Assembly: GCF_004353825.1 (NCBI RefSeq)
Contig: NZ_SMNA01000005.1
Location: forward strand, 434,001 to 498,000
From: Occultella glacieicola
Lineage (GTDB): Bacteria > Actinomycetota > Actinomycetes > Actinomycetales > Beutenbergiaceae
Length of the DNA: 64,000 nucleotides
Reading direction: 5' to 3'
Positions within the stretch are counted from its first letter, which is position 1; each line of letters opens with the position of its first letter. The position numbers and the translations under genes were made by a program. Shown here one piece after another: positions 20,828 to 23,606 of the stretch. The notes beneath the pieces were generated by a model that did not search any database, was not told where the DNA came from, and saw only the letters and a list, made by a program, of their open reading frames with translations.

Positions 20828-21517
20828 TCAGCGCTGGTCGACGAGCTTGTAGCCCAGACCGCGCACGGTCACCAGCACCTGCGGGTTGACCGGATCCACC
20901 TCGATCTTGGCCCGGATCCGCTTGACGTGGACATCGAGGGTCTTGGTGTCCCCGACGTAGTCGGCTCCCCAGACCCGGTCGATCAGCTGACCCCGGGTGA
21001 GCACCCGGTCAGGGTTGCGCAGGAGCAGCTCGAGCAGCTCGAACTCGCGCAGCGGGAGCGCGACCTCCTCACCGTCGATGGTGACCACGTGCCGGTCGGT
21101 GTCCATCCGGATCCGGCCGACGCTGAGCACCGCCGGGGTGAGCGCGTCCATGGACTCGTTGCCACGCCGCAGCACCGCACGGATCCTGGCCAGGAGCTCC
21201 CGGAAGGAGTAGGGCTTGGTGACATAGTCGTCCGCGCCGATCTCCAGCCCGACCACCTTGTCGATCTCCCCGTCCTTGGCGGTCAGCATGATCACCGGGA
21301 CCGCGCTGCGCTGGCGCAGCTCGCGGCAGACCTCGACCCCGGACAGCCCCGGCAGCATGAGGTCGAGGAGGACCAGATCGGCGCCCGCGCGGTCGAACTC
21401 CACCAGGGCGTCGGTGCCGGTCGCGACCGGGACCACCTCGAACCCCTCGCGGGTGAGCTGGTAGGTCAGCGGTTCGCGGTAGGACTCCTCGTCCTCAACG
21501 AGCAGGATGCGGGTCAC
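20828..21517 (-). CDS. regX3: phosphate-responsive response regulator RegX3 (OmpR family)
   Basis: 229-residue two-component regulator. The receiver domain carries the acidic pocket in LLVEDEESY, the phosphorylation site Asp52 in LVLLDLMLPGLSG and Lys in MLTAKDGE. The OmpR winged helix follows (LPLREFELLELLLRNPDRVL, then VDVHVKRIRAKIE-type recognition helix, here LDVHVKRIRAKIE). GTG 21517 lies 23 bp inside the senX3 3' end, so the two are coupled. Its partner senX3, the divergent phoU and the adjacent gpmA reproduce the gene order around RegX3 in mycobacteria, which supports the phosphate-starvation assignment over other OmpR regulators. Confidence 0.93.
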   Translation of the reverse strand: MTRILLVEDEESYREPLTYQLTREGFEVVPVATGTDALVEFDRAGADLVLLDLMLPGLSGVEVCRELRQRSAVPVIMLTAKDGEIDKVVGLEIGADDYVTKPYSFRELLARIRAVLRRGNESMDALTPAVLSVGRIRMDTDRHVVTIDGEEVALPLREFELLELLLRNPDRVLTRGQLIDRVWGADYVGDTKTLDVHVKRIRAKIEVDPVNPQVLVTVRGLGYKLVDQR

Positions 21518-22715
21518 GGGTCTCTCCTCCTGCACCGGCCGAGGTGGGCGGTGCCTTCTCATCGCGGGACGGCGCGCCGCCGTCGCTGCTGTCGTCTGCC
21601 AGGGGAATACGCAGGGTGAACGTGGAACCGCGGCCGGGCGCGGACCAGAGGGTCACCTCGCCGCCATGGTTCTGGGCCACGTGCTTGACGATGCTCAGGC
21701 CGAGCCCGGTGCCACCGGTGTCCCGGGACCGGGCCGGGTCCACGCGGAAGAACCGTTCGAACACCCGCCCGGCGTTCTCGCTGGAGATTCCCGGGCCCTG
21801 GTCGACCACCGCGATCTCGGCGATCCCGTCGCGCGGCCGCACGCCCACGCTCACCCGGGTGCCGTTGTCCGAGTAGCGCAGGGCGTTGTCGAGCAGGTTC
21901 CGGACGGCCGTGACCAGGAGCGCATGGTCGCCGAGCACGTGCAGGCCCGTGGTGCCGCCGACGACGACCGTGATCTCGCGGGACTCCGCCTCGACCCGGA
22001 TCCGGTCCACCGCCTCGGTCACCACGCCGTCGACGGAGACGTCCACGTAGCCGACCTCGTTGTCCGGGGCCTGGAGTCTTGACAGTTCGATGATCTCCTG
22101 GACGAGGGCGGACAGCCGGACCGCCTCCCGCTGCATCTTCCCCGCGAACCGACGCACGAGTTCGGGGTCGTCGGCGGCGTCCGCGGCCGTCTCGGCGAGC
22201 AGTGCGATCGCCCCGACCGGCGTCTTCAGTTCGTGCGAGACGTTCGCCACGAAGTCCCGGCGAACCTCCTCGAGGCGACGTTGCGCCGTCTGGTCGTCGG
22301 CGAGCAGGAGGACCCGGCCGCCGGCCATCGTGGCGACCCGGACCTCGAAGGACAGCCGGTCCGCGCCCGGCACTGCCGAGCGAGGCACCTCCAGGTGCTC
22401 GTCACGGATCTGGCCGTCGGCGCGCGTGGCAGCGACGAGGTCGTTCAGCGTCGCGTGCGTGAGACGGCCGTTGCGGACCAGGCCCGTCGCATACGCGTCC
22501 GGGCTCGCGCGCAGGACCTCTCCCCCGGGCCCGAGCAGCACGGACGTCGAACGCAGTGCGGACAGCAGCGCGGCCACGTCGTAGGAGACCGCCGGCTTGG
22601 CGACCTCGGGCTCGCGGGCGTGGCTGCGCTCGCTCCATCGGAACGCCAGGGCGGCCGCGGCACCGACCAGCAGGCCGACCAGGCCCACCGCGATCAGTGC
22701 CCACGAACCGTCCAC
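21495..22715 (-). CDS. senX3: sensor histidine kinase SenX3 (PhoR-like)
   Basis: 406-residue membrane kinase that phosphorylates RegX3 under phosphate limitation. One N-terminal membrane segment (about 6-26, IAVGLVGLLVGAAAALAF) is followed by a PAS-like domain (45-140), the HisKA domain with His161 in VANVSHELKTPVG, and the ATPase domain with N box (LLDNALRYSDNG), G1 (VVDQGPGI), F box (VFERFFRVD) and G2 (GTGLGLSIVK). The GTG start at 22715 faces phoU across a 225-bp region holding a PHO-box-like array. In related systems PhoU signals phosphate sufficiency to this kinase. Confidence 0.93.
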   Translation of the reverse strand: MDGSWALIAVGLVGLLVGAAAALAFRWSERSHAREPEVAKPAVSYDVAALLSALRSTSVLLGPGGEVLRASPDAYATGLVRNGRLTHATLNDLVAATRADGQIRDEHLEVPRSAVPGADRLSFEVRVATMAGGRVLLLADDQTAQRRLEEVRRDFVANVSHELKTPVGAIALLAETAADAADDPELVRRFAGKMQREAVRLSALVQEIIELSRLQAPDNEVGYVDVSVDGVVTEAVDRIRVEAESREITVVVGGTTGLHVLGDHALLVTAVRNLLDNALRYSDNGTRVSVGVRPRDGIAEIAVVDQGPGISSENAGRVFERFFRVDPARSRDTGGTGLGLSIVKHVAQNHGGEVTLWSAPGRGSTFTLRIPLADDSSDGGAPSRDEKAPPTSAGAGGETRDPHPAR

Positions 22716-22775
22716 AGCGCCAGACTAGGCCCCGCCATCGGGTGCCCTCGGCCGCCGGTGGCCGGGTAGCCTGTT

Positions 22776-22808
22776 GTTCACCGTGGGTGCATCGCTCGTT
22801 CACCGTGG
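22776..22808. promoter_or_regulatory. PHO-box-like array, three 11-bp direct repeat units
   Basis: Three consecutive 11-mers are GTTCACCGTGG (22776-22786), GTGCATCGCTC (22787-22797) and an identical GTTCACCGTGG (22798-22808). GTTCACC with 11-bp phasing is the known PhoP direct-repeat unit in Streptomyces. The array sits between the divergent senX3 and phoU genes, exactly where a RegX3 or PhoP-type regulator would control both. Confidence 0.75.
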
Positions 22809-22940
22809 CGTGGGACTCTGAGGAGTACGTGTGCGCACGTCGGGGAGTCGGGTCCACAGAGACGCGACCGCCGCGGGTACGCACGGCCAACGGTTGGAAC
22901 GGCGGGCGGTCGCCCGCAACGAGAAGAGGAGAATGATCGG

Positions 22941-23606
22941 GTGCGAGCGATCTTCGAGCAGGAACTGAGCGCGGTCGGTGAGGGCCTGCTGCAGATGAGC
23001 CGGCAGGTCCAGACGGCGGTCCGAGACGCCTCCACGGCACTCGCGGCGGCCGATCTCCAGGCGGCCGAGCAGGTCATCGCCGCCGATGACGCGATCGACC
23101 AGCTGGAACGCGAGCTCGACGACCGGTGCGTCGACCTGCTGGCCCGGCAGCAGCCGGTCGCCACGGACCTGCGGATCATCGTCTCGGGGCTGCGGATGAG
23201 TGCCTCGATCGAGCGGATGGGCGACCTCGCCCGGCACGTCGCCCAGGTGACTCGGCTCCGGTACCCGGAGCTGGCGATCCCGGAACCGGCCCGCGACCTG
23301 TTCGCGGCGATGGGGGAAGCTGCGGACAAGGCGGCCACGGACGTGGTCCGGCTGCTCGAGACGCACGACCTCGAGTTGGCGGCCGCGGTCGAGCGCGACG
23401 ACGACGTGCTCGACCACCTGCACCAGCAGACCTTCAATCTGACGCTCAGCCCGGAGTGGGCCGGCACCACCGCCCAGACCGTGGACGTGACGCTGCTGGC
23501 GCGGTTCTACGAGCGTTTCGGTGACCACGCCGTCGCCATCGCCCGCCGGATCTCCTACCTGGTGACCGGCGACCTGGAGCACCTCGGCGACTACAACAAG
23601 GCCTGA
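22941..23606 (+). CDS. phoU: phosphate signalling protein PhoU
   Basis: 221-residue all-helical cytoplasmic regulator made of two PhoU repeats (about 10-95 and 115-205). It starts MRAIFEQELSAVGEGLLQMS, and the metal-binding motif region is seen in SIERMGDLARHVAQV and its second copy FYERFGDHAVAIARRIS, each with the conserved E-x-x-D/H pattern. GTG 22941 follows GAGGAG. It restrains the SenX3-RegX3 response when phosphate is ample. No pst transporter genes lie in the window. A strong hairpin terminator follows. Confidence 0.95.
   Translation: MRAIFEQELSAVGEGLLQMSRQVQTAVRDASTALAAADLQAAEQVIAADDAIDQLERELDDRCVDLLARQQPVATDLRIIVSGLRMSASIERMGDLARHVAQVTRLRYPELAIPEPARDLFAAMGEAADKAATDVVRLLETHDLELAAAVERDDDVLDHLHQQTFNLTLSPEWAGTTAQTVDVTLLARFYERFGDHAVAIARRISYLVTGDLEHLGDYNKA

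Follow-up and report, generated by a model that had tools for sequence, protein, structure and literature searches.

Transcription at the pho box of Escherichia coli phoA is activated by PhoB. In Streptomyces, phoU and the kinase-regulator operon phoRP are divergent, and 11-nt units with a GTTCACC core point toward phoU, with a weak unit lying between stronger ones (PMC6283541; PMC6988585). The phoU-phoRP region of S. filipinensis is reported to hold four units in the phoU direction, of 3.3, 10.6, -2.8 and 6.3 bits, and to be bound by PhoP in a gel shift (PMC6283541). PHO boxes are also listed upstream of phoU and pstS in Actinosynnema (PMC9019756), and PHO boxes at phoU are, on these published accounts, already known from both genera. 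The RegX3 box has been given as G(T/G)TCAcc-n4-cG (PMC7884335) and, for mycobacteria, as an inverted GTGAAC repeat with a 5-7 bp spacer (PMC7525159); both papers cite Glover 2007 for it. In M. smegmatis, phoU1 is described as induced via SenX3-RegX3, and PhoU1 as shifting SenX3 to phosphatase (PMC12301784).

The window, i.e., the whole 64,000-nt stretch of Occultella glacieicola DNA that was analysed, has an array of three units in exact 11-bp register between the divergent senX3-regX3 and phoU genes (Table 1). The initial annotation described it as two identical units flanking a degenerate third with exact 11-bp phasing, and its coordinates and letters are correct. It was silent on a weak fourth unit in the same register and on the conserved -10 elements on both sides. 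The array consists of at least two 11-nt units in one orientation, each with a GTTCACC-like heptamer that is exact in units 1 and 3, as in Streptomyces-type PHO boxes. The genes are also arranged as in the SenX3-RegX3 and PhoR-PhoP systems (the latter as in Streptomyces), with a kinase and an OmpR-type regulator adjacent in the same direction and phoU divergent. Thus the proposal that the layout is that of the Streptomyces PhoP box, with 11-nt units and a GTTCACC core, is borne out by sequence comparison. The window differs from S. filipinensis in having three to four units, of which the outer ones are identical. The PhoP box of Saccharopolyspora erythraea is similar in its two 11-nt units (GtTCacc plus 4), but other target genes were studied there (PMC6880422).

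Table 1. Features of the senX3-phoU intergenic region and adjacent genes; positions are those of the window.
Feature	Position	Strand	Basis
regX3, OmpR/PhoB-type response regulator, predicted start	20828..21517	-	best solved relative M. tuberculosis RegX3 (2oqr), E 4.9e-101
senX3, histidine kinase, start GTG 22715	21495..22715	-	PhoR/PnpS-type kinase models, below equivalog cut-offs; beside phoU in 30/30 loci
Predicted senX3 -10, TAGTCT, 6 nt before GTG, leaderless geometry	22722..22727	-	4/4 congeners
Weak fourth unit, GGTAGCCTGTT, 4/7 to GTTCACC, in 11-bp register	22765..22775	+	invariant in 4/4 congeners
Unit 1, GTTCACCGTGG	22776..22786	+	mean 0.52 mismatches to GTTCACC at this position (27 phoU loci)
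Unit 2, GTGCATCGCTC, degenerate, 5/7 to GTTCACC	22787..22797	+	covers -35 region of predicted phoU promoter
Unit 3, GTTCACCGTGG, adjoins predicted phoU -10	22798..22808	+	mean 0.56 mismatches (27 phoU loci)
Predicted phoU extended -10, TGG-GACTCT (TG 22811-22812, hexamer 22814-22819)	22811..22819	+	4/4 congeners
phoU	22941..23606	+	TIGR02135, 179 bits against a cut-off of 130

The heptamer GTTCACC occurs 31 times in the window where 6.65 copies are expected, and thus is no evidence by itself. When up to 3 mismatches are allowed, the spaced pair GTTCACC-N15-GTTCACC has 15 matches in the window, as against 5.77 expected, and is free of mismatches only at the array. A pattern of the full 33-bp array, again at up to 3 mismatches, has a single match in the genome of 5,339,675 bases and none in a reversed control.

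The surroundings of phoU were compared in 30 loci, the best among those listed for 56 of 59 matching genomes, the window genome being counted among the congeners. Units spaced by 11 or 22 bp with no more than 2 mismatches are found less than 300 bp from phoU in 29 of these 30 loci, all pointing toward phoU, as against 0/30 coding stretches and 0.7% of shuffled sequences; the loci are related and the counts hence not independent. The spacing is 22 bp in 26/30 loci and 11 bp in 14/30, and any other spacing from 8 to 30 bp appears in at most three. The 22-bp pair is absent from L030 and L031, and only a poor pair is present in L022; these three are left out of the counts by position and offset below, which cover the other 27 loci. 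Over the four congeners, hardly anything varies between GGTAGCCTGTTGTTCACC and GAGGAGTACGTGTGCG other than the tails and some of the middle unit. As judged by sequence comparison, conservation is stronger proof of the array than these match statistics. The identity of the two 11-mers and the frequency of GTTCACC in the window might be expected of a chance array, or of a recent tandem duplication without function, but the array is kept in 4/4 congeners with different tails and across the order in all but one of the 30 loci. A chance origin is ruled out by this conservation, and the probability left to the explanation as a whole is negligible.

Tandem copies were also searched for elsewhere in the genome. 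GTTCACC-N4-GTTCACC with up to 2 mismatches is present at 78 places, two of them exact, as against 7 in a reversed control, in which codon usage is not preserved. One exact tandem (C9:18617) is located 131 bp upstream of pstS. Profile models name PstS and Ppk among the open reading frames of this locus, and the others are, to judge by their sequences, putatively a NUDIX gene, pstC, pstA, pstB and pit. Among the best 30 matching pstS loci, from the window genome and its relatives, a tandem pair with up to 2 mismatches is found in 29, all in the direction of the gene, and in 0/30 pstS coding stretches of the same size. The sole exception (L154) is a locus cut by a contig end, and was left out of the offset counts. 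The boxes at pstS are direct tandems, and the motif is thus located at Pho regulon genes, pstS included. The initial annotation had named a lack of similar arrays in front of phosphate genes as grounds for refutation; with the tandem present at pstS both in this genome and in its relatives, no such lack is seen. It had also suggested a scan for GTTCACC repeats upstream of pst and alkaline phosphatase genes; the first part held, and for the second only a weak pair was found, at phoD. This pair, GTTCACTCGGA ATTCGCCTTAC, has 3 mismatches over its two units and precedes the ATG of the sole PhoD-type phosphatase gene that was detected by 116 bp (G000:C19, near 359414; L175, L164, L179). A similar weak pair is present in the one congener that has phoD. 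The pair is weak on its own, because with the window divided into 188 tiles of 340 bp, a tandem of equal or better quality is found in 11 (two with two mismatches, nine with three).

The second exact tandem (G000:C17:87586-87603; L035, L165, L186) precedes a gene for a non-ribosomal peptide synthetase of the Pls/PosA family (TIGR02353). Its second unit begins 16 nt before the hexamer GATAAT, and this arrangement, with a -10-like hexamer at offset 16, is displayed by 4/4 congeners, the window genome included. The synthetase gene is a predicted phosphate-controlled target. The arrangement is also recognisable in L191, L192, L194 and L195. Further weak tandem units in 11-bp phase are found at G000:C11:257458-257486, C23:92896-92924 and C19:324924-324941 (L042, L043, L046).

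The middle unit of the array is degenerate in general, with a mean of 3.04 mismatches in the 27 phoU loci as against 0.52 and 0.56 for its neighbours. Positions C4, A5, C6 and C7 are retained in 24, 20, 20 and 19 of the 27. Because CACC is retained, the unit fits a direct copy of GTTCACC and not an inverted one (GGTGAAC). The position of the fourth unit averages 4.4 mismatches in the same 27 loci, and thus its role as a binding unit is uncertain. These data bear on whether the site could be an inverted RegX3 repeat, GTTCAC-N5-GTGAAC, of the type stated for mycobacteria in PMC7525159, and not a direct array. The middle unit, GTGCAT, is equally close to GTGAAC and to GTTCAC, so that GTTCAC-N5-GTGCAT has 2 mismatches whether read as direct or as inverted, and the 5-bp spacer sits on the same 11-bp lattice. 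The best inverted pairs of GTTCAC and GTGAAC with a 5-7 bp spacer in the intergenic region of the window have 2 mismatches, and share bases with the direct reading. Against the inverted repeat are the two exact copies on the same strand, 22 bp apart, the CACC retained in the middle unit, and the direct tandems at pstS. An inverted site is thus very improbable.

At pstS the units follow in the order strong, strong, degenerate and intermediate (mostly GGTCACC or CGTCACC), followed by exactly 5 nt and TANNNT. Counted from the fourth unit, TANNNT has an offset of 16 in 28/29 loci, and every other offset from 8 to 37 gives 0/29. At phoU, NANNNT is found at offset 16 from unit 3 in 21/27 loci and TG at offset 13, also in 21/27. 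The stricter TANNNT is found at phoU offset 16 in 0/27 loci, and the window hexamer, GACTCT, is without the first T. Transcription of phoU is predicted to start near 22826 (+). The phoU ATG comes 6 nt after the -10 in L033 and 7 nt after it in L028. A last unit 16 nt before the -10 suggests an activator of the PhoB type, placed as at promoters that lack a -35 box. The pho box of E. coli phoA is similar in having two 11-bp units directly upstream of the -10, but its core is TGTCA and the offset from the last unit to the -10 is 17 as compared with 16. In S. filipinensis the last unit is described as lying 4 nt from the phoU -35 (PMC6283541), whereas in the window it is 5 nt from the predicted -10.

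On the other side of the array, senX3 is the divergent neighbour of phoU in all 30 phoU loci, and its transcript is predicted to be leaderless, with a start at 22715 (-). At senX3, TANNNT precedes an in-frame ATG or GTG by 5-8 nt in 30/30 phoU loci, and in 107/109 loci in a wider sample. The same rule applied to the other two frames is satisfied in 16/109 and 0/109 loci, with fewer start codons looked at (407 and 145, against 891 in frame). L091 and L125, which have no leaderless start, were dropped from the wider test, and L064 was excluded as a probably mis-named record. The L064 contig is filed as an Acidobacteria MAG, its regX3 is 95% identical to that of M. tuberculosis, and it is probably a mis-binned mycobacterial contig.

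The distance between the array and the senX3 -10 falls into three main classes of 48-49, 58-60 and 69-72 bp. Taken modulo 11, it is in phases 3-6 in 104 of 107 loci, a figure that is not to be read as a probability because the sequences are related, while shuffled upstream sequences give a flat distribution. The loci are from the order of the window genome (30), Mycobacteriaceae (18), Nocardia and relatives (29), Pseudonocardiales (24), and Geodermatophilales and others (6), where the assignment of named records to groups is our own. What counts for the lattice is that from one group to another the absolute distance shifts by roughly one unit and the phase remains constant. The stepping of the distance between array and senX3 -10 by about 11 bp in five actinobacterial groups is possibly new. 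Neither this rule nor that of offset 16 was found in print in a search that missed most subscription journals and did not have the spacing itself as a query.

The initial annotation set the array apart from the site reported for mycobacterial RegX3, and this contrast is not supported. The RegX3 of the window and that of M. tuberculosis (2oqr) are identical over a 30-residue stretch that includes the recognition helix, and the 11-residue sequence of this helix is found in 79/80 RegX3 loci. Moreover, an 11-bp direct array is present upstream of senX3 in 18/18 mycobacterial loci, where it is degenerate and in phase 3 or 4 of the lattice in every case. These upstream sequences share a conserved block, ACAGGTGTTCGGCnGCCGTTCACCCGCnGTTCGCC, that points away from senX3. 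The half-sites are also alike, since GTGAAC is the complement of GTTCAC. What differs is that the mycobacterial site is described as an inverted repeat (PMC7525159), that its units are more degenerate, and that a conserved GTTCACC also points toward senX3, beside its -10. The latter is found in L054-L072, about 1.2-1.4 kb upstream of regX3 and about 7 nt before the -10, which in fast growers is TACGAT. It could be this senX3-ward GTTCACC that has been described in the literature as an inverted repeat.

In the 18 mycobacterial loci, a direct 11-bp pair with up to 2 mismatches over two hexamers is present in 9 and the inverted GTTCAC-N5-7-GTGAAC in 11, while inverted arms in the opposite order occur in 2. 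Most of the 11 GTTCAC-N5-7-GTGAAC pairs have the conserved GTGAAC as their second arm and a first arm that overlaps the senX3 -10. The pair counts by themselves do not decide between direct and inverted, but the lattice result favours the direct reading, as far as sequence can tell. Most likely the RegX3 and PhoP proteins of different actinobacteria read one common box.

The array could also be read by another protein of the same genome, one of the OmpR type or a DevR-like one, and RegX3 would then play a secondary part or none. For PolR of Microlunatus phosphovorus, described as highly DevR-like, binding to GTTCACnnnnnGTTCaC has been reported at pit, ppk and pstS, the footprint covering 32 bp (PMC6754071), and the genome has 33 matches with RegX3 as query, RegX3 itself included. 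However the box is beside senX3 in 30/30 phoU loci, and, of nine other regulator regions examined, seven have a readable DNA-binding region and the 10-residue recognition sequence is found in 0/7 of these, the nearest being TRTVDVHVRR. On the phoU loci and these seven regulators, another regulator is quite unlikely. A DevR-like PolR on the same GTTCACnnnnnGTTCaC box (PMC6754071) would mean two unrelated types of regulator on one motif, which would be odd.

From its sequence, conservation, spacing and gene context, together with the identical recognition helix, the array is very probably a PHO box that belongs to the phosphate-starvation system SenX3-RegX3 (PhoR-PhoP) and would serve two promoters, with RegX3 as the presumed binding protein. 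At low phosphate, SenX3 would phosphorylate RegX3, and RegX3~P would bind the 11-bp units head to tail, strongly at units 1 and 3 and cooperatively at the degenerate middle one. On the phoU side, RegX3~P would activate in the manner of PhoB at a class II promoter, where the last unit, 16 nt ahead of the -10, would substitute for a -35 box. On the senX3 side, the array, 48 bp upstream of the -10 of the leaderless promoter and in a fixed helix phase, would drive autoregulation. PhoU, made from the other side, may then turn SenX3 to a phosphatase, and thus damp the response.

A wider proposal is that the senX3 operator of actinobacteria, mycobacteria included, is one ancestral 11-bp lattice, i.e., a head-to-tail array that keeps 11-bp steps (about 48, 59 or 70 bp) to the -10 of a leaderless senX3 and, if it is followed on its far side by phoU or some other target, 16 nt to the -10 of that gene. 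We give this an even chance. If it is true, the description of the mycobacterial site as an inverted repeat would have to be revised, and the targets of RegX3, the Pls/PosA peptide synthetase included, could be predicted from one spacing rule. A small muddle in naming, between RegX3 box and PhoP box, is most likely settled. The spacing rule, 16 nt to the -10 of the target and steps of 11 bp to the senX3 -10, can serve to locate targets in genomes without expression data, and the inverted repeat reported for mycobacteria is now open to a direct test.
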